This document shows, piece after piece, positions 1 to 47,734 of a stretch of DNA of 64,000 nt. Source of the stretch: Fimbriimonadaceae bacterium. GTDB lineage: Bacteria > Armatimonadota > UBA10988. The notes below the pieces were generated by a model. That model saw only the letters and a program-made list of their open reading frames with translations. It did no database searches and had not been told where the DNA came from. Positions within the stretch are counted from its first letter, which is position 1; each line of letters opens with the position of its first letter. The stretch spans positions 1 through 64,000 of the forward strand of contig JADZEX010000011.1 in NCBI GenBank assembly GCA_020850355.1, given 5' to 3'. Position numbers and translations under genes: made by a program.

Positions 1-105
1 AAAGGAGCCGGCATGAACTGGAGCCCCGACGGTCTGACCGCCCTGCTGACCGTCCTGGCCGACGAGCTGACCGACCCAGCCGTCCGCCGGCCCCGCGCCG
101 CCTGA
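1..105 (+). CDS. 3' end of an unidentified gene cut by the window edge
   Basis: A frame open from the first base runs to a TGA at 103-105 and gives a short tail ending in VRRPRAA. An internal ATG lies at 13 behind AAAGGAG, so a tiny standalone gene is formally possible. A truncated longer protein is likelier, because the same frame is open to the window edge. Nothing in these 34 residues identifies a family. It ends about 100 bp before the GntR regulator on the same strand. Confidence 0.35.
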   Translation, partial: KGAGMNWSPDGLTALLTVLADELTDPAVRRPRAA

Positions 106-142
106 CCCTACGCTGTGACTCGCACCCCCCACCCGCCGTCAT

Positions 143-3101: not shown

Positions 3102-4021
3102 TGCAACTCGGTTTCGTCTCCGCGATTCTTCCCGACCTCGACCTCGACGGCGTCCTGGCCAGCGCCGCGCGGCATGGCTACGACTGCGTCGAGGCGATGT
3201 GCTGGCCGCGCGGCAAGGCCGAACGGCGCTACGCTGGGGTCACTCACGTCGACGTCGGCGACCTCTCGCCAGCGCGGGTCGATGCCATTGGCGAGCTCTG
3301 CGCCCGGCACCGCGTGGCGCTCAGCGCCCTGGGTTACTATCCCAACCTGCTGAGCCCCGACGCGGCCGAGGCGGACGCCTGCCAAGCGCACCTGCGCCGC
3401 GTGATCGCGGGCGCCGCGGCGCTCGGGCTGGGGGTCGTCAACACCTTCATCGGTCGCGACCCGGCGCTCTCGGTGGACGCCAACTGGCCGCGGATGCGGC
3501 AGGTCTGGCGTCCGCTGCTGGCCTACGCCGCCGACTGCGGCGTGCGGATTGGCATCGAGAACTGCCCGATGTTGTTCACCGCCGACGAGTGGCCGGGCGG
3601 CAAGAACCTGGCGACCAGCCCGGTGATCTGGCGCCGGCTGTTCGACGACCTGGACAGCCCGCAGCTCGGGCTGAACTACGACCCGTCGCACCTGGTCTGG
3701 CAGATGATGGACCCGATTGCCCCGATCGCCGAGTTCGCGGGACGATTCTGGCACACCCACGCCAAGGACGTGCGCCTGAACCGCCGCGCCCTGGACGAGG
3801 TGGGCATCCTGGCGACGCCGCTGGCCTACCATCAGCCGAAGCTGCCGGGCCTCGGCGAGGTCGACTGGGGCGCCTTTTTCGCCGCCCTGACCGACGCGGG
3901 CTACGCTGGCGCGGTCTGTGTCGAAGTCGAGGACCGCGCCTACGAGGGCAGCCTGGCGGCGCGGCAGGCGGCGTTGCAGCAGAGCCACGCCTACCTGCGC
4001 CCCTACTGTGCAGCGCGCTGA
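3101..4021 (+). CDS. Sugar phosphate isomerase/epimerase, xylose-isomerase-like TIM barrel
   Basis: A 306-residue cytoplasmic TIM-barrel protein of the AP-endonuclease-2/sugar isomerase superfamily. The barrel metal ligands can be traced: E153 in GIENCPM, D194 and H197 in [10 protein letters not shown]218/H220 in FWHTHAKD, and a C-terminal CVEVED glutamate near 276. Such enzymes isomerise or epimerise keto-sugars, inositols or their phosphates. The start is well supported by GGAGGAGCCCCTG before the ATG, which overlaps the previous stop by one base (TGATG). With the Gfo/Idh enzyme upstream it makes a common oxidoreductase plus isomerase pair for rare sugars or inositol-type compounds. Confidence 0.88.
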
Positions 4022-32290: not shown

Positions 32291-33363
32291 ATCCGCAGCA
32301 GCCCCGCGGCGGTCTGATCGACGTTGTGCGCCACGGCCCACTGGCGGGCGGCAGCGCCCATCGCCGCTCGTCGGGCCGGGTCCGCCAGCAACGCGCAGAT
32401 GCCCTCAGCCAGGGCCAGCGGGTCGCCCACCGGCGTCGCCAGACCGACCTCCGGGGGCCAGTCGTGGAGGTACCCGACGCGGGTGCCGACGCAGGGCAGC
32501 CCGCTGGCGGCAGCTTCGGCCAGCGCCAGGCAGGCGCCCTCGTGCAGCGAGCTGTGCACATACAGATGGGCCCCACGATAGTGCGCGGCCAGGTCGGCGC
32601 TGGCGATCACGGGATGAAACGTGACGCGGTCTGCCAGACCCAACTCCGCCGCCTGCCGCGGCCGCTCGCCGTCCAGGATGTCGCAGCCGAAGAGGTCGAG
32701 GCGCACGTCCCAGCCGCGCCGCACCACCTCAGCGCAGGCGCGCAGTAACGTGCCCTGGTCCTTCACCCGATTCTGGCTCCCCACGTGCAGTAGCCGGTAA
32801 GGAGGGGCGGCGGGCGGGGCCGGGGCCGGTGTGAAGAGGTCGGTCGGGCAGCCCAGCGGCAGGCGTTCCAGCCGGCGCCGGTAGCGGCGGGCCTGGTGTG
32901 CGATGAAGTCCGTCCAACAGATCACCACGGCGGCCCGCTGCAGACAGCGCCAGGTGACCAGCCGGCCGCGCCAGGTACAGCAACCGCCGTAGCGGATCTG
33001 CGGCAGGCAGGCGACTTCACCGCCAGTCAGGCTGACCACGGTGGGCGGCAGCGGTCCGGCGGCGGCGCGCGCTGGGAAGAGTTGCGGTTCGCCCGCCCAC
33101 ATCGCGTGGAGCACGTCAAACGGGCCGTGCTGCTCGAAGCTCTCGCGGAAGCGCTCCAGGCGCGCGGCGCGCGACCCGTCGCCGAGGCAGTGGACCTGCG
33201 CGCCGCAGAGCGGCCAATCGCCCGGCTCCGGCTCCTGGCGCAAGGCCCAGACATGCAGCTCCACCTCACGGCTGAGCCGCTGCATCAGCCAAAGCTGGAA
33301 CGGGATGACCCGCTCCACGCCGCCACGGTCCACGCCCCCGGGAACGACCCAGGCCACTCTCAT
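32272..33363 (-). CDS. GT4-family glycosyltransferase
   Basis: A 363-residue cytoplasmic, probably membrane-associated, GT-B enzyme. The donor-binding half is clear: LHVGSQNRVKDQGTLLRAC, DLFGCDIL, and the EGACLALAE glutamate pair (E-x7-E) in SSLHEGACLALAEAAASGLP. The N-terminal half starts RVAWVVPGGVDRGGVERV, typical for GT4 acceptor domains. It would move a sugar from a nucleotide donor to a lipid-linked or extracellular polysaccharide. Its ATG overlaps the stop of the upstream glycosyltransferase (ATGA), so the pair is translationally coupled. Confidence 0.88.
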   Translation of the reverse strand: MRVAWVVPGGVDRGGVERVIPFQLWLMQRLSREVELHVWALRQEPEPGDWPLCGAQVHCLGDGSRAARLERFRESFEQHGPFDVLHAMWAGEPQLFPARAAAGPLPPTVVSLTGGEVACLPQIRYGGCCTWRGRLVTWRCLQRAAVVICWTDFIAHQARRYRRRLERLPLGCPTDLFTPAPAPPAAPPYRLLHVGSQNRVKDQGTLLRACAEVVRRGWDVRLDLFGCDILDGERPRQAAELGLADRVTFHPVIASADLAAHYRGAHLYVHSSLHEGACLALAEAAASGLPCVGTRVGYLHDWPPEVGLATPVGDPLALAEGICALLADPARRAAMGAAARQWAVAHNVDQTAAGLLRIYRSLV

Positions 33364-34529
33364 TGGACTGCCGCCCTCCTGGCCAGCGCCGTAGCGTAGA
33401 CCGCGCTGGCGATCCGGCCGATCGCTGGCCAGCTCAACAACTCCTCGAACTGCCGGCGCGCGGCCGCCCGCTGCTGCGGCCGATCGCCCGCCAGCACCTG
33501 CTCCAGCGCCGCTGTCAGCGCCGCCGGCTGCCCGACTGGCCAGGTCGCCCCGACGCTGCCCACCATGTAACGATGCGGCGGCAGGTCGCTCACGACCGGG
33601 AGGCAGCCACAGGCCAGCGCTTCGCAGAGCGCGTAGCTGCTGCCCTCGCGGTGGCTGGCGCTGACGTACAGGTCCGCCGCCCGCAGCGCCGTCTCAACGT
33701 GGTGGTGGGGCAACTCGCCCAGCAGGTCCACCTGCGCGGCCGAGGGCTGCGCCGCGAGCTGGGCGCGAACCTCGGGTAGCAGGTCGGTGCGCCGGTAGAC
33801 CAGCGCCAGCCGGGCGGCCGGGCGTGCCGCCAGGACCGGCCCGGCGCCAGCCAGCAACGTCAGCGGGTCCTTGCCGGCGACCAGGTGGCCAATCGCCAGC
33901 AGCAAGGGCTCACCGCGCCAGCCGAGCGCGGCCTGGGCCGCCGCGCGGTCACCGGGCGTGAAGCTGGTGCTGCCCTCCATCACCTCAGCCACGCGGTCCA
34001 GATCGGGGAGCACGCCCGCGGCGACATACGGCAGCGCCGTCTCGCGACCCGTGAACAGGAAGGCGTCGGCCAGGGGACAGCAGCGCCGCTGCAGCCAGCC
34101 GGTCAGCCGCTGCCGGGGCTGCTCGGCGTGGTGCTGGACGACGATGGCGGCCGCCTGTGGCAGGGCCCTTCGCAACCGGCGCAACGCGAGCGGCTGCAGG
34201 AACGAACCGTAGTGTACGACCTGCGGCCGCGCCGCCACGACCGCCGCCACCATCTGGCCAAGGCCGTGCAGCGCCCGCGGCCAGGGTGGCAGGCCATCGG
34301 CGACGAAGACCCAGCGCACCCCGTCGGCCGTCCACTGTGCGGCCTGCGAGAACCGCTGCACGACGGTCACCGCCAGCCCCTGGGCGGCCAGCCCGGCGGC
34401 CCAGCCGGTGAGCGTCTCCCAGGCCGCGAGCGCCTCCTGCGGCGTCGTGTGCCGCGGGTCGTAGACGGCGTTCACCAGGCACACTCGCCGGGCAGCCGCC
34501 GCGCCAGCCTGCTGTTTCACGTGAAACAC
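33360..34529 (-). CDS. GT4-family glycosyltransferase whose first codons contain a parS site
   Basis: A 389-residue GT-B enzyme: acceptor-side VNAVYDPRHTTPQEAL, LAIGHLVAGKDPLTLLAGAG at the inter-domain junction, and REGSSYALCEALACGCLP with the E-x7-E donor motif. Like its downstream partner it probably builds a surface polysaccharide. The start is unusual. No ATG is available, and GTG codons at 34529 and 34520 lie within TGTTTCACGTGAAACA, giving MFHVKQ or MKQ. GGTGG upstream is a weak ribosome site. I chose 34529. The centromere site thus constrains the protein N-terminus. Confidence 0.82.
   Translation of the reverse strand: MFHVKQQAGAAAARRVCLVNAVYDPRHTTPQEALAAWETLTGWAAGLAAQGLAVTVVQRFSQAAQWTADGVRWVFVADGLPPWPRALHGLGQMVAAVVAARPQVVHYGSFLQPLALRRLRRALPQAAAIVVQHHAEQPRQRLTGWLQRRCCPLADAFLFTGRETALPYVAAGVLPDLDRVAEVMEGSTSFTPGDRAAAQAALGWRGEPLLLAIGHLVAGKDPLTLLAGAGPVLAARPAARLALVYRRTDLLPEVRAQLAAQPSAAQVDLLGELPHHHVETALRAADLYVSASHREGSSYALCEALACGCLPVVSDLPPHRYMVGSVGATWPVGQPAALTAALEQVLAGDRPQQRAAARRQFEELLSWPAIGRIASAVYATALARRAAVQ
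34513..34528. other. parS: parS centromere site, perfect consensus
   Basis: TGTTTCACGTGAAACA, the exact 16-bp palindrome bound by chromosomal ParB (Spo0J) in many bacteria. ParB loads here as a CTP-dependent clamp and, with ParA and SMC, segregates the origin region. The site lies at the 5' end of a glycosyltransferase gene and 65 bp from the -35 of the caspase promoter. A second perfect copy is 10 kb away. parAB are not in the window. Confidence 0.9.
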
Positions 34530-34592
34530 CCCACCGTGGTGGTGGGCGACCCGCTGCGGGACCGGGCACGCCACAACCGACTCCCGGGTAGG

Positions 34593-34622
34593 TTGACCCG
34601 GCGCTCTGCCGCCGACTAGAAT
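34593..34622 (+). promoter_or_regulatory. Promoter of the caspase-FGE operon
   Basis: TTGACC (34593-34598), 18-bp spacer, TAGAAT (34617-34622), the same layout as the yebC promoter. The start of transcription should lie near 34629, 50 nt before the ATG at 34679. It is the only promoter-like site before the caspase gene. Confidence 0.75.
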
Positions 34623-34678
34623 GGCAACGGGTGGCGCAGCGTTGGGGAATCGGCCGCTGGGCGGCAGCGAGGGAACAG

Positions 34679-36655
34679 ATGCGTGTGGCACTCGGGCTGT
34701 GGTTGGCCACCTGGAGCATCGCGACGGCGGCACCGATCCCTGGCGGGGTGCCGCTCCGCGCGATCCTGGTCGGTGTCAACAACTACCAGAGCCGGCAGAT
34801 CAACCCCTTGACCTACGCCGTCGCCGACGCCACCGCGCTGCGCGACTTCCTGGTCGCGGGCGATGGCGCCGGGGTGCCCGCGGATCGCATCACCCTGCTC
34901 GAGGATGGGGCCAGCGCCGACCTGCGCCCGACGCGTGAGAACCTGCTCCACCACCTCGGCAGCGTGGCCGCGGCGACCGCCAAGGGTGAGACGTTGCTGG
35001 TCTACTTCGCCGGCCACGGGGTCAACCGCAAGGGCGAGGACTACCTGCTGCCGGCCGACGCCGACCTGCGCAGCGAGACCTCCCTCGCGGCCAGCGCCCT
35101 GGCCGTCAGCGACCTGACGACCGCGCTGCTGCCGGCGAAAGCGCGCCAGGTGCTGTTCATCGTCGACGCCTGCCGCGACACCGCCAAGAGTCCCGGCGGG
35201 ATCTTTGGGTCGGCGCTGCGCATCGCCAGCACCGACGGCCTCGACGCCGACCGCGTGCGGGCCACCTTCTCGGCGGCGCGGCCGGGGCAGCGGGCCTACG
35301 AATGGCCGCAGGTCGGCCACGGCGTGTTCACCTGGTTCCTGCTGGAAGGTCTCCGCGGCGCCGCGGTCGATGATGCCGGCTGGGTGACCGTCGACAGCCT
35401 GGCACGGTACGTCCAGCGGGAGGTCAACGACTGGACCCGCAAGGCCCTCAAAGGCCGTGAGTCGCAGTTGCCCTGGCTGCTCAAGGACGGCGTCGCGCCA
35501 TTGGCCCTGGTGCGGTTCCAGCCGGCCCGGCTGGTCTCCGTGGCGCTCGACAAGACGCCGCTCAAGCAGGCGCTCCAGACGATGGCGCGGCAGGCCGACT
35601 GCGACCTGCTGTTGGCGCCCGGGGTGCCCGAAGAGGCGCCGCTCAGCTTGACGCTGCGGGGCCGGCCCCTGTCCGAGGCGCTCGGCCTGGTGCTGCGCCC
35701 GCTGAACCTGGCGTTTGAGGTGCAGGACCGCATCGTGGTGGTCAGCCCGAAGGTCAGCGAGGGCGGCGGGGTGAAGGCCACTGGCCTCCCCGATGCCGTC
35801 GGCGGCGGCCCGGTCGGGGCCGTCCCGCTGGCGGTCCAGCGTCCGTTGGGGCAAGACCAGATGCCACTGGTGCTGATCCCCGGCGGCCGCTACCAGCGGG
35901 GCTCGACGCAGGCCCGGATCGAAGCCGACCTGCAGTTGCCCGGTCTCGGCGAAGTGGCCGAGTTCCTGTTCTTCAACGAACTCAGCAACCGGGCGGTGGA
36001 GATCAGCAGCTTCTACCTGGACGAGACCGAAGTCACCGTCGGGCAGTACCGGGCCTTCGTCGCCGCAGGCGGCTACCGTGACCCACAGTGGTGGGGACCC
36101 GACGGCTGGTCATGGCTGCAGCAGGCCGGCGTCAGCGCCCCGGCGGGGTGGCCCGCAGCGACGACTCCGGCGGACCTGCCGGTGGCCGGGGTGGCCTGGT
36201 ACGAGGCCAGTGCCTACGCAGCCTGGGTCGGGCGCCGGCTGCCGACCGAGGCGGAGTGGGAGTACGTCGCCCAAGGCGGACAGGGCTGGCGCTACTCCCT
36301 CGGCGACCGCTGGGACCCTGTCCAGCTCGGCATCGGGCCGGCGGCGGGTTCGATCAAGCGGCATCCGGCCAACCCGCTGGGCTGCTACGACCTTACCGGC
36401 AACGTCGCCGAGTGGGTCACCGACGTCTACGAGAACGACTTCTACCAGTGGGGCGAGGCGGCCAACCCGATCTGTGTGGCGACCGTCAAAGTCGATGTGA
36501 CCGAACCCCGGCGGGTGGTCCGCGGCGGCGGGTTCGATGCCGATGCGGTCACCGCGCGGGTCCGCAAGCGGGCGGCCCTGGCTCCTGGCGAGCGTCGGCT
36601 GAACACCGGCTTCCGTTGCGCCGCCGACCTGCGCACCGTGAAAGGGATGCCATGA
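34679..36655 (+). CDS. Exported caspase-like peptidase fused to STN and FGE-sulfatase domains
   Basis: A 658-residue protein with a signal peptide (about 1-18). Residues about 25-275 form a caspase-like (C14) domain with the catalytic dyad His113 in YFAGHG and Cys165 in IVDACRD. Residues about 286-357 match the secretin/TonB short N-terminal (STN) domain (SVALDKTPLKQALQTMARQA, GRPLSEALGLVLRPLNLAFE). Residues about 395-655 form a formylglycine-generating-enzyme/C-type-lectin-like domain (VLIPGGRYQRGS, LPTEAEWEYVAQGG, TGNVAEWV, RVVRGGGF, LNTGFRCA). FGE domains of this kind often act as ligand-binding modules. GAGGG lies 5 nt before the ATG. It is coupled (ATGA) to a DUF4384 partner. The role is unknown; a surface-sensing protease is an inference. 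Confidence 0.85.
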   Translation: MRVALGLWLATWSIATAAPIPGGVPLRAILVGVNNYQSRQINPLTYAVADATALRDFLVAGDGAGVPADRITLLEDGASADLRPTRENLLHHLGSVAAATAKGETLLVYFAGHGVNRKGEDYLLPADADLRSETSLAASALAVSDLTTALLPAKARQVLFIVDACRDTAKSPGGIFGSALRIASTDGLDADRVRATFSAARPGQRAYEWPQVGHGVFTWFLLEGLRGAAVDDAGWVTVDSLARYVQREVNDWTRKALKGRESQLPWLLKDGVAPLALVRFQPARLVSVALDKTPLKQALQTMARQADCDLLLAPGVPEEAPLSLTLRGRPLSEALGLVLRPLNLAFEVQDRIVVVSPKVSEGGGVKATGLPDAVGGGPVGAVPLAVQRPLGQDQMPLVLIPGGRYQRGSTQARIEADLQLPGLGEVAEFLFFNELSNRAVEISSFYLDETEVTVGQYRAFVAAGGYRDPQWWGPDGWSWLQQAGVSAPAGWPAATTPADLPVAGVAWYEASAYAAWVGRRLPTEAEWEYVAQGGQGWRYSLGDRWDPVQLGIGPAAGSIKRHPANPLGCYDLTGNVAEWVTDVYENDFYQWGEAANPICVATVKVDVTEPRRVVRGGGFDADAVTARVRKRAALAPGERRLNTGFRCAADLRTVKGMP

Positions 36656-43364: not shown

Positions 43365-44531
43365 TCAGCGGTACAGCCAGTCCACCTCGAACGAGGTGAC
43401 CTGCGTGCGGTTCAGCCCACCAACCTGGGCGTCGCCAGCGCAGTGCGCCAGGACCACCCGACTGCCGACGAAGGCGATGGCGGTGTAGCAGTACCAGCCG
43501 TCGGCGGCGTCTTCCAGCGTCCGCGGCGGGCTCCAGGTGGCGCCGTCGTCGCGGCTGACAGCGACGGTCAGGGGCGTCCGCTTGCCTCGCAGGGCGGGGG
43601 CGATCTGGCGGTGGTCGTTCCAGACCAACAGCAGATCGCCAGTCGCCGGGATTCGTTCGCAGGCAGCCGGCGAGAGCGGTGAGACGATGCTCGTCGGAAG
43701 CGCGGCGTCCCAGGTCTCGCCGCCGTCGCGGGAGGTGCAGCCCCACTGCGTGCCGCGGTCGGTACGCGCCAGCATCCAGAGCCGGCCGTCCCGGCGCTCG
43801 ACCACCAGGGGCTCTTGCAGGCCGGCCCCGCTGCCGGCCGGCGGCAGCACCATACCCAGCCCGCGCCGCCAGGTCCGGCCGTCGTCATCGCTCCGGAAGC
43901 AGACCAGCGCCGAGGGGCGGAAGCGTGGGTTGGGCGGCCAGACATGCTGCGAGGCGGGCACCACCAGCCGCCCATCGCGGAGCCGCACGACGCGGTCGTT
44001 GTTGACCACGAAGTAGCCGACTTCCGGCATACAGAGCGTTGGCTCGCCCCAGGTGGCGCCCTCGTCGGTGGAGCGCCGCAGGTACATCCGGCAGTCGCTG
44101 CCGCTGTTCTTGCGCAAGTAGAACAGCCCGATGCTGTCGTCCGCCATCCGGCGCAGGGTCACCGACATCACGTTCTGGCCGCCCTCGTTGCGCAACACCA
44201 GCCCGTCGGTGTCGCTCCAGGTGCGGCCCTGGTCGGTCGAGACGCGACTGGCCAGGTGGGCCGTGGCATGGTCGGCCCCGCCGCCGGTGAAGTGGGTGTA
44301 GACCAGCAGCAGCCGGCCGTCAGTCAGTTCGAGCAGGTCGCCCTCGCTGTTGCGCGGATTGCCCGGTCCGGGCGACAGCAGGCGGTTGCGGACGACACCG
44401 TCGCGCTCGCTGACATCGGCCGCCAGCAGCGCCGGGGTGAGAGCCAGGCAGAGGCAGAGCACGAGGCATCCCCAGGACACCTGGCGGTGTTGGCGGCCGC
44501 GGCAGCGAGTCCTGCCGCGGCGCTGTTTCAC
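43365..44531 (-). CDS. Exported sialidase-like Asp-box propeller
   Basis: A 388-residue secreted protein with a signal after a basic start (SWGCLVLCLCLALTPALLAA). Five Asp-box motifs mark a six-bladed propeller: STDQGRTW, STDEGATW, SDDDGRTW, SRDGGETW and SRDDGATW, with further sialidase-type features (NPRNSEGDLLEL, LQEPLVVER). Family members cleave sialic or other acidic sugars or simply bind glycans; the arginine triad cannot be confirmed by eye. The start GTG at 44531 lies in the centre of a parS palindrome (giving MKQ) and has no clear ribosome site. It follows the GH127 gene by about 20 bp on the same strand. Confidence 0.8.
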   Translation of the reverse strand: MKQRRGRTRCRGRQHRQVSWGCLVLCLCLALTPALLAADVSERDGVVRNRLLSPGPGNPRNSEGDLLELTDGRLLLVYTHFTGGGADHATAHLASRVSTDQGRTWSDTDGLVLRNEGGQNVMSVTLRRMADDSIGLFYLRKNSGSDCRMYLRRSTDEGATWGEPTLCMPEVGYFVVNNDRVVRLRDGRLVVPASQHVWPPNPRFRPSALVCFRSDDDGRTWRRGLGMVLPPAGSGAGLQEPLVVERRDGRLWMLARTDRGTQWGCTSRDGGETWDAALPTSIVSPLSPAACERIPATGDLLLVWNDHRQIAPALRGKRTPLTVAVSRDDGATWSPPRTLEDAADGWYCYTAIAFVGSRVVLAHCAGDAQVGGLNRTQVTSFEVDWLYR

Positions 44532-44539
44532 GTGAAACA
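44524..44539. other. parS: Second perfect parS centromere site
   Basis: TGTTTCACGTGAAACA again, 10,011 bp from the first copy. It lies in the 20-bp gap between two minus-strand genes and reaches into the start of the sialidase-like gene, whose GTG is the core of the palindrome. Two exact 16-mers in 64 kb cannot be chance, so this is very probably a ParB-loading region near the chromosome origin. Confidence 0.9.
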
Positions 44540-44550
44540 GCGCGGCGGTT

Positions 44551-46932
44551 TCACGGTCTGGCGCGCAGTTCGAGGACCCCGCCGGAGTAGCCCGGCGCGA
44601 GGTCCACCTCCAACCGGAGCGCGCTGCTGGTCAGCGGCGCGAAGCGGACTTCGTTCCAGGCGTCGCGCTGTCGGCCCGGCTCCTGCGCCGTGGGGACCGG
44701 CAACCACTGCTCGCCCACCTGCTGCCACAGCCGCCAGGCGGCCGGCACGCGGCACGAGCCGACGCCAGTGTCGTCGAACCAGTAGACCGCGAGGCCGCTG
44801 ACCTGCCGTGGCTGCGGCCACCTCAGTTGCAGCCATTCGCGCCCGCCGCGGTGGTCCCACCAGGTGAACCGCGGCATCCGCAGATCGCCCGATCCGGTCG
44901 GCTCCTGCCCGTCGTTGACCGCCTCCAGCGTGTCCGCCTGCCAGCAGTGCGAGGCGCTGATCGTGGCGTCGCCGGCCAGCGTGCGCGGCGGTAGCTTGAG
45001 CTGCTCCGGCCGCTCCGGCAGCCAGACCGCCATCTCGTTGGGGCCGCGGTGGCACCAGGCGTAGTAGGGGATCAGCGTCACCGGCGCGGCGTCGCAGGTG
45101 ACGCCGCCATCCGCCTGCCGGGTCGCCCGCTGCCCGGCGCCGCGTAGCAGCGTGAGGCCACCCAGCAGCGTCGGCTGCCAGTCGGGCCGCAGCTCGGCCG
45201 CCGGCGGCAACAGCAGATCGCGGGTCCGGCCGGCGTGGTCAGCGCCCTCCCAGCAGTAGACCAGCGGCCCGCGCTCGACGGCCACCAGGCCGGCCAGGTC
45301 GCGCACCTGGTGGTGCGCCTGCACGCGGCGCACGGGCATCGGCAGCTCCAAGCGGACCCGGTCGCCCGGCCGCCAGTGGCGCCGCAGCGGCAGGTAGCCG
45401 TGGTCCAGTCGCATTGGCAGCGGCTCGCCGTTGAGTTGCGCCTGCGGTCCCGGGCCGGCGGCTGCGCGGTAGGCGTAGAGGTCGCTGGGCAGCGGCCGGC
45501 CCTGACTCCAGCCCGGCACGCGCAGGCGCAGCGTGAACGTCGCCGGCCGCTGTGGGCGCACGGTGACCTCAACCGTGCCGTCCCACGGGTAGCGGGTCTG
45601 TTGCCGCAGGGTGACGGTCTGCCCGCCGACTGCCAGGTCGAGGCTGCCAGCGGCGTAGAGGTTGAGATCGACCACGTCGCCCCGGCTGCTGGCGAAGTAG
45701 CGCAGCAGGCTGGGCATGAAGCGCACCACGTTGACCGGGCAGCAGGAGCAGCCGAACCACGGCGCCCGTTCGCGCGAGCCGTGGTTGAAGGCCCGGCGGC
45801 CGTCGCTGACCAGCGGGTTCGGGTAGAAGAAGCGGTCTCCGCTCAGGGCCACACCGCTGAGGAAGCCGTTGTAGAGGATCCGCTCCAGGACATCGTAGTA
45901 GCGCCCATCGCCGGTCAGCCGGCCGAGCCGCTCGCTGAACAGCGCCGCGGCGATGGCGGCACAGGTCTCGTTGTAGGCGTCGTTCGGCAGCTCATACTCG
46001 GCGCCGAAGGCCTCGCCACCGTGCGACGCCCCGACGCCGCCGGTCAGGTACAGCTTGCGCCCCACCATGTTCTGCCACAGCCGCACCGCGGCCGCGGCGT
46101 AGGCCTGGTCGCCGGCCAGCAAGGCCTGGTCGACCATCGCCGCGTACTGGTAACCGGCCCGCACGGCATGCCCGACCACCTCGCTCTGCTGCAGCACCGG
46201 CAGGTGGTCCTGCTGCCCGGCACCGCGCAGCGCGTGAGTCTCGGGGCGCCCGCGCAGATCCAGGAAGAACCGCGCCAGGTCGAGGTACTTGCGCTGGCCG
46301 GTCGCCTGATAGAGCCGCCCCAAGCCGAGCTCGATCTCCTGGTGACCCGGCGGCTCCAGCAGCTTGCCGGGGCCGAAGACCGTGCCCAGGAAGTCGGCGT
46401 TGCGCAGCGCGACGTCCAGCAGACTGCGCTGGCCGGTGGCCTGGTAGTGCGCCGCGGCGGCCTCGTAGAGGTGGCCGACGTTGTACAGCTCGTGGCTGCT
46501 GGCCAGCCGACTCCAGCGCGTCGGACCGCTCATGCCCGGCATCTGGTCGGCCGGCAACAGCCGCCGCGCCGTGTAGAGGTAGCCGTCTGGTTCCTGCGCC
46601 CCGGCGATGTCGGCGATCAGCGCGTCGAGGTAATGCTCCAGCGCTGGGTCGCGCTGCCGCTGCAGCTCGTAACTCGCGCCCTCGATCACCTTGAACACGT
46701 CACTGTCGTCGAAGGGCGTGCCGACGAAGGTGCCCGGCAGCCGGCCCGCGGCCTTGGCGAAGTTGGCGTTGCGGCCGGTCTCGTCACACTTCGCGAAGTC
46801 GTAGGGCACGGTCACGCGCCGGTTGGTCTCCAGCCGCTGCGACCAGAAGCCGTCGTGCAGCCGCACCGCCGTCAGCGGCACCGGTTCGCGGACGGCGGTG
46901 GCGAGGATCACCAGGGACCACGTCAGCAGCAT
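44551..46932 (-). CDS. GH127-family beta-L-arabinofuranosidase-like enzyme
   Basis: A 793-residue glycoside hydrolase. The (alpha/alpha)6 domain contains FAKAAGRLPGTFVGTPFDDS, GTGNxE-like and GGVGASHGGEAFGAEYELPN. The zinc/catalytic set is complete: Glu322 and Cys324 in YNETCAA, and Cys395, Cys397 and Cys398 in GCSCCPVN, equivalent to the Cys-nucleophile site of the bifidobacterial HypBA1. The C-terminal 160 residues form a discoidin-like module (ISASHCWQADTLEAVNDGQE, VYWFDDTG). A short hydrophobic N-terminus (LLTWSLVILATAV) suggests export. GGAG lies 7 nt before ATG 46932. It would release arabinofuranose from plant or microbial glycans. Confidence 0.9.
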   Translation of the reverse strand: MLLTWSLVILATAVREPVPLTAVRLHDGFWSQRLETNRRVTVPYDFAKCDETGRNANFAKAAGRLPGTFVGTPFDDSDVFKVIEGASYELQRQRDPALEHYLDALIADIAGAQEPDGYLYTARRLLPADQMPGMSGPTRWSRLASSHELYNVGHLYEAAAAHYQATGQRSLLDVALRNADFLGTVFGPGKLLEPPGHQEIELGLGRLYQATGQRKYLDLARFFLDLRGRPETHALRGAGQQDHLPVLQQSEVVGHAVRAGYQYAAMVDQALLAGDQAYAAAAVRLWQNMVGRKLYLTGGVGASHGGEAFGAEYELPNDAYNETCAAIAAALFSERLGRLTGDGRYYDVLERILYNGFLSGVALSGDRFFYPNPLVSDGRRAFNHGSRERAPWFGCSCCPVNVVRFMPSLLRYFASSRGDVVDLNLYAAGSLDLAVGGQTVTLRQQTRYPWDGTVEVTVRPQRPATFTLRLRVPGWSQGRPLPSDLYAYRAAAGPGPQAQLNGEPLPMRLDHGYLPLRRHWRPGDRVRLELPMPVRRVQAHHQVRDLAGLVAVERGPLVYCWEGADHAGRTRDLLLPPAAELRPDWQPTLLGGLTLLRGAGQRATRQADGGVTCDAAPVTLIPYYAWCHRGPNEMAVWLPERPEQLKLPPRTLAGDATISASHCWQADTLEAVNDGQEPTGSGDLRMPRFTWWDHRGGREWLQLRWPQPRQVSGLAVYWFDDTGVGSCRVPAAWRLWQQVGEQWLPVPTAQEPGRQRDAWNEVRFAPLTSSALRLEVDLAPGYSGGVLELRARP

Positions 46933-46990
46933 CAAGCGCTCCGGCCGGGCGCTTCGGGGCGTTGGCCGGCATCCCTGCCGTCTGGCCGGC

Positions 46991-47734
46991 TCAGACGTCG
47001 GGGAACAGCTCCCCCGCCAGCGGCGCGCCGACCGCCAGGTCCAGCGGGGCGGTGCAGACATGGGCCGCGCCGTTGAAGGTGGTGGTGCGCTCCATGAAGA
47101 TCACGACATGCGCCACCCGCGCCTCGGTGGTCAGGTTGGGCGTCGCCATATGGGCGCAGCGGCCGTGGTGGAAGGTGCAGTCGCCAGCTCGCAGCGGCAG
47201 CGTCACGCGCGGCTCCCACTGCAAGTCGGGGCACAGGCCGAAGAGACTGCCGGCGTCACGCAGGTTCTGGGCCGGCAGATCGCGGCGGGCGTGGCTGCCG
47301 GGAAGGAAGGTCATGCAGCCCCGTTCGACCGGCACGTCCTGCAGGGCAATCCAGGCCGAAATCGGGTCGGGCGAGTTGGCGTGCGGCCAGTAGGGCTGGT
47401 CCTGGTGGAACTCCGTGCTGACGTTGCCGTGCGGCCGCTTGATCAGCAGGTGGTCGTGCCACAGGCGCAGCGGCTGCCCGACCAGCGCAGTCGCCGCCGC
47501 CGCCAGGCGCGGCAGGAGGGTCAGCTCGCGGATCACCGCGTCGTGGCGCCAGACATTGACGTGCTGGTCGAACACCTCGCCGCCCGACCGGACTTCCTCC
47601 CGCGACTCCATCACCGCCAGCGCGGCCGCCCGAAAGCGAGCCGCTGCAGCCAGCGACAGCAACCCACCGACCTTCACAAAGCCGTCGGCACGGTACCGTG
47701 CCACCATCTCCGCCGTGACCAACTCACCAGCCAT
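46991..47734 (-). CDS. PhyH-family Fe(II)/2-oxoglutarate dioxygenase
   Basis: A 247-residue cytoplasmic phytanoyl-CoA dioxygenase-like protein. The metal triad is His and Asp in EFHQDQPYWPH (HxD) and the distal His in HHGRCAHMATPN. The Arg that binds 2-oxoglutarate is probably the one in TEARVAHVV. The N-terminus (VTAEMVARYRADGFVKVGGL) is typical. Such enzymes hydroxylate lipids, secondary metabolites or sugar-related molecules; the substrate is unknown. GGGGAG lies 7 nt before the ATG. It is upstream of the GH127 gene in the same orientation, with about 58 bp between, so co-transcription is likely. Confidence 0.87.
   Translation of the reverse strand: MAGELVTAEMVARYRADGFVKVGGLLSLAAAARFRAAALAVMESREEVRSGGEVFDQHVNVWRHDAVIRELTLLPRLAAAATALVGQPLRLWHDHLLIKRPHGNVSTEFHQDQPYWPHANSPDPISAWIALQDVPVERGCMTFLPGSHARRDLPAQNLRDAGSLFGLCPDLQWEPRVTLPLRAGDCTFHHGRCAHMATPNLTTEARVAHVVIFMERTTTFNGAAHVCTAPLDLAVGAPLAGELFPDV

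Follow-up and report, generated by a model that had tools for sequence, protein, structure and literature searches.

A genuine-looking parS site in a draft bacterial genome with 112 or more perfect copies, concentrated at the origin and sparse elsewhere

The window analysed here is a stretch of 64,000 nucleotides (positions 1–64000 of contig C12) from a 6.67-Mb (6672 kb) draft genome that is ~95% complete in 117 contigs. It contains a perfect copy of the parS palindrome TGTTTCACGTGAAACA at 44524–44539, a feature without assigned strand, located between the end (44551) of a GH127 beta-L-arabinofuranosidase-like gene (44551..47061, minus strand; PF07944, E 6.7e-101), its upstream neighbour, and a gene for a BNR-repeat (sialidase-like) protein (43365..44531, minus strand; PF13088, E 1.7e-34). 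Read directly from the sequence, the palindrome extends to 24 bp with GCGC flanks. An earlier note on this DNA described the site as a second perfect parS whose counterpart lies 10,011 bp away, and both statements are confirmed: the exact 16-mer is present, and another exact copy occupies 34513–34528 (also without strand), with a start-to-start distance of 10,011 bp. This first site is situated between divergently transcribed genes coding for a group 1 glycosyltransferase (33360..34520, minus strand; PF13692, E 1.4e-13) and a protein with caspase and FGE-sulfatase domains (34631..36655, plus strand; PF00656 and PF03781), the latter gene lying between the two parS sites. In its product a Peptidase_C14 caspase is joined to a formylglycine-generating-enzyme-like (FGE-sulfatase) domain, with a weak STN match in between.

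A scan of the window for further matches to TGTTTCACGTGAAACA with up to three mismatches found none besides those at 34513 and 44524, and an Rfam scan of the window gave no match. Dinucleotide shuffles of the window (n=100) yielded a mean of 0.02 matches and none of the 100 contained two. The independent-base expectation is ~5e-7 per 64 kb, lower than the 1e-5 given in the note, which held that two copies are not chance. The left end of the window (1–127) shares 126 identical bp with L032:1-126 on contig C96, where this sequence immediately precedes rpmH at the origin; the duplicated stretch ends a small ORF.

The central GTG of each site had also been proposed as the start codon of a minus-strand gene beginning VKQ. 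Both sites do encode FHVKQ on the minus strand with the GTG in frame, at 44524 with the BNR gene, where it is a candidate start inside parS, and at 34513 with the glycosyltransferase ORF 33360–34733, where the GTG (34518–34520) is one in-frame candidate start in a frame that stays open further upstream, to 34733. The codon-usage caller prefers starts downstream of the GTG, by 36 nt at 34513 and 69 nt at 44524, and use of the parS GTG as the actual start of the two genes is possible. As a general theme the idea fails, and a systematic parS–GTG start codon was rejected: of 102 cases across the genome, 33 have the GTG in the reading frame of the adjacent gene, about the one third given by chance.

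Exact copies of TGTTTCACGTGAAACA number 112 in the genome, where ~5e-5 would be expected by chance and a reversed control pattern gives none; the looser core GTTKCACGTGMAAC has 161 matches. Of the 112 exact sites, 110 were assigned to contigs. Densities of exact sites per 100 kb are 33.7 on C46, 19.1 on C96, 18.2 on C59, 9.7 on C22 and 2.7 on C12. C46 bears dnaA (at 873) and, at 3343, a gene read as recF-like from its position and an SMC_N match, and the left end of C96 carries rpmH followed by yidC, jag and parA-parB (rpmH, yidC and jag identified by eye). These two gene groups flank the origin and the parS array is therefore origin-centred, so that the concentration of sites near oriC typical of chromosomal ParABS systems is present genome-wide. 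C46 and C96 together hold 65 of the 112 exact sites on 270 of 6672 kb, and with C59 and C22, whose place relative to the origin is not fixed, at least 92 of 112 lie on 515 kb. Sparse sites occur on many contigs of this unordered draft, C12 among them. The earlier suggestion that the window pair defines a ParB-loading zone is not borne out, as the pair accounts for 2 of 112 exact sites on a contig with 2.7 per 100 kb, compared with 34 and 19 on the two origin contigs.

The sites also differ in their local arrangement, with a neighbour within 110 bp for 120 of 134 sites on the four dense contigs versus 2 of 11 on the sparse contigs. Intergenic sites mostly come in groups of 2–4, and close spacings are 24–25 bp and mainly 42–68 bp (mode 55–59); helical phasing of these spacings is weak (best Rayleigh R 0.29, at a period of 11.5). 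The right ends of C46 and C59 share an identical 127 bp with a parS array of 25-bp period, and since this is an assembly branch point the true number of parS sites may exceed 112. Joining of contigs by end overlap was attempted and abandoned, there being no unique joins; the C46/C59 right ends (127 bp) and C12/C96 left ends (126 bp) are branch points.

Several features point to selection on the sites. Among sites with up to two mismatches (n=145), placed relative to gene calls from a custom codon-usage script, 137 are intergenic although intergenic DNA makes up 10% of bases (binomial p ~1e-126). Gaps between convergent genes are enriched, with sites in 19 of 48 versus 36 of 291 other gaps (Fisher p 2e-5), a bias that speaks against promoter operators. 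One-mismatch sites (n=36) vary at the outermost base alone in 31 cases (p 2e-23), so that the 14-bp core is nearly invariant. Spacers within most arrays resemble each other no more than shuffled sequence does while the core is kept, suggesting that the sites persist as the DNA around them changes; recent tandem duplication accounts for a few arrays, with spacer identity of 0.77–0.89. A mobile repeat was rejected for most copies, their flanks being unrelated. Two one-mismatch sites on C96 (L032:14711 and 14744) lie inside a coding frame, CobS-like by eye, and encode FHVKL twice; these are possible in-gene parS insertions.

The genome encodes one ParB_N-family protein. It has a ParB_N (CTPase), an HTH_ParB and a C-terminal ParB_C (dimerisation) domain, ParA adjoins it upstream, and it matches solved Spo0J/ParB structures in the PDB (E ~1e-55) and ParB proteins of named genomes at 34–54% identity. 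An SMC gene (1214 residues) is also present. The parS-reading residues R173 and G201 (Caulobacter numbering) are kept; a mutational study found both in every ParB, with substitutions in Noc (PMC7383237). The Noc residues Q173 and R201 are absent, with R and G in their places, so by residue the protein would not be classed as Noc. The 16-bp TGTTTCACGTGAAACA palindrome, a putative cognate ParB adjoining ParA, and R173/G201 are all present, as in a chromosomal ParABS system. The identification of 44524 and 34513 as parS is thereby supported by their sequence, the single predicted cognate ParB/ParA operon, the core constraint and the intergenic placement.

Three genomes of the same family contain 1–2 looser-core sites each, and those located (in G001 and G003) adjoin parB and bear a G variant, TGTTGCACGTGAAACA or TGTTGCACGTGCAACA (L124:4004 and 5989, L125:1095). 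These few, loosely matched sites point to a lineage-specific expansion and not to absence of function. In a survey of the phylum (291 genomes) the next highest count after this genome is 89, in G098, a member of another family, and all others have 13 or fewer. The G098 sites have their own outer bases (C...G), some form 58-bp arrays and some lie near parB. Its arrays include L140:5253-5592 and L156:376-895, and several coincide with assembly breaks at the ends of contigs. The maximum in Planctomycetota (392 genomes) is 13 sites. Among 397 genomes of Actinomycetota, 394 have 0–33 sites, and a Streptomyces control (G291) has 25 core sites; the other three, G452, G581 and G656 (3.4–4.0 Mb; L148-L153, L159), have 110, 114 and 135 parS cores among them. 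G452, a single 3.38-Mb contig, has 114 sites. Among the 100 of these that were listed, 41 are within 100 kb of dnaA and the remainder extend across much of the chromosome, including 15 that lie 1.5–1.7 Mb from dnaA, near the terminus, a layout that resembles the dense origin and scattered minority of the genome described here. Small clusters recur along the G452 chromosome, one of which packs six sites into 8 kb close to the point opposite dnaA. Of 71 sites sampled in G452, G656 and G098, 67 are intergenic. The outer bases differ by lineage, which suggests independent parS expansions, and the hyper-arrays (89–135 sites) in one distant phylum member and three Actinomycetota suggest that giant ParB-loading systems, in part chromosome-wide, have evolved more than once.

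The 44524 site is a genuine-looking bacterial centromere sequence, and its perfect copies, at least 112 in this chromosome, crowd around the origin with a thin scatter elsewhere. It is probably a parS site at which ParB loads, as a scattered secondary point outside the dense array. ParB is a CTPase clamp that loads at parS, closes, and slides onto flanking DNA. The sequences, the site counts, the origin-centred density on the two origin contigs, the intergenic placement, the core constraint and the ParB, ParA and SMC genes are observed; ParB binding and sliding, the loading of SMC and consequences, if any, for segregation or nearby genes are inferred. The single chromosomal ParB would bind each parS copy, form a closed clamp and slide along the DNA on either side. 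With more than 90 copies on ~0.5 Mb, mostly around dnaA and parAB, this would present ParA with an unusually large partition complex, and the origin array could double as an SMC loading zone. The two isolated copies in the window would belong to a sparse set of secondary loading points beyond that dense array.

Four other explanations can be weighed against this reading. The site-rich contigs could be foreign to the organism that the window comes from, through faulty binning or assembly, given that the genome is a draft and its same-family relatives have just 1–2 sites. We regard this as exceedingly improbable. Tetranucleotide correlations of C12 with the site-rich contigs are 0.94–0.97, compared with 0.76 for a same-family genome, and the value of 0.97 with C96 together with the common 126-bp repeat indicates that C12 is from the same organism; the only strong DnaA match and the only ParB of the bin are on site-rich contigs, and the pattern recurs in single-contig genomes of another phylum. 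Scarcely more credible is that an ordinary regulator happens to recognise this palindrome and uses the sites as operators to control flanking genes. The window sites are indeed 28 nt and 61 nt from called gene starts, yet the strongest enrichment is between convergent genes, away from promoters, the motif is standard parS, the array is centred on dnaA and parAB, and density tracks parB.

Selfish or repeat-driven spread would have multiplied short parS-bearing repeats, the window pair included, by local duplication, leaving little function now. The few recent tandem duplicates and the parS-bearing 127-bp stretch common to two contig ends speak for it, but most copies have unrelated flanks, avoid genes and keep the 14-bp core while spacers are not kept, and isolated sites such as those in the window have no surrounding repeat; we consider this reading doubtful. 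It is likewise unlikely, if somewhat easier to entertain, that ParB at the scattered sites, again including the window pair, also marks the nucleoid and keeps the division machinery away, with ParB and Noc roles in one protein. The presence of a single ParB_N-family protein leaves no separate Noc, and the sparse sites on many contigs here and the far-from-origin sites in the single-contig actinobacterial genome would suit such a role. The protein, however, keeps R173/G201 and not the Q173/R201 of Noc, and in G452 15 of the 100 listed sites are near the terminus, from which, to our knowledge, Noc sites are absent. The distribution itself speaks for a Noc-like role, as Noc sites are chromosome-spread and parS sites usually origin-confined (PMC7383237).

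Under the favoured reading of the window copies as parS, the scattered sites are the surprising part, because in Caulobacter an additional parS outside the native cluster is disfavoured at mid-arm positions (PMC5815017). They contradict this rule, and the sparse copies may therefore be weak, inert or otherwise used. Genomes that carry more than 100 parS, among them single-contig actinobacterial genomes with sites along much of the chromosome, are natural counter-examples to the Caulobacter pattern. They would allow tests of how ParB loading is balanced with SMC loading and parS position, and of whether bacterial centromeres can expand. More tentatively, ParB–parS in several unrelated lineages may have become a chromosome-wide nucleoid organiser, with a giant centromere of ~0.3–0.5 Mb built of close-spaced parS arrays in numerous gaps between genes and with loading points scattered along the chromosome; if true, this would be a bacterial analogue of a polycentric chromosome. 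A literature search for genomes with more than 100 parS sites, whose range did not extend to the main 2007 survey, found no report, and a search for parS in Rubrobacter or Armatimonadetes returned nothing relevant.

Most bacteria have one to five parS sites. The system described here is like the chromosomal ParABS systems of Bacillus (Spo0J) and Caulobacter (ParB) in its 16-bp palindrome, its ParB domains, the adjoining ParA and ParB and the origin-centred placement, but those have few sites, near the origin, whereas here there are 112 perfect copies over more than 0.27 Mb and a scattered minority. A review gives up to 20–23 parS sites in Streptomyces and Listeria, and poses as open why parS number varies and why copies cluster (PMC7333895). 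The multi-parS chromosomes of Streptomyces are similar in having many sites, densest near oriC, with some close pairs; matrix prediction across 20 closed streptomycetes puts the mean at 22.8 and the range at 11–65 (PMC8743542), in contrast to 112 exact and 161 looser-core matches here. Noc and its NBS sites share with this system a ParB-family protein and sites spread over the chromosome, but differ in that the site here is parS and not NBS, the ParB has parS-reading residues, and the sites are densest at the origin.
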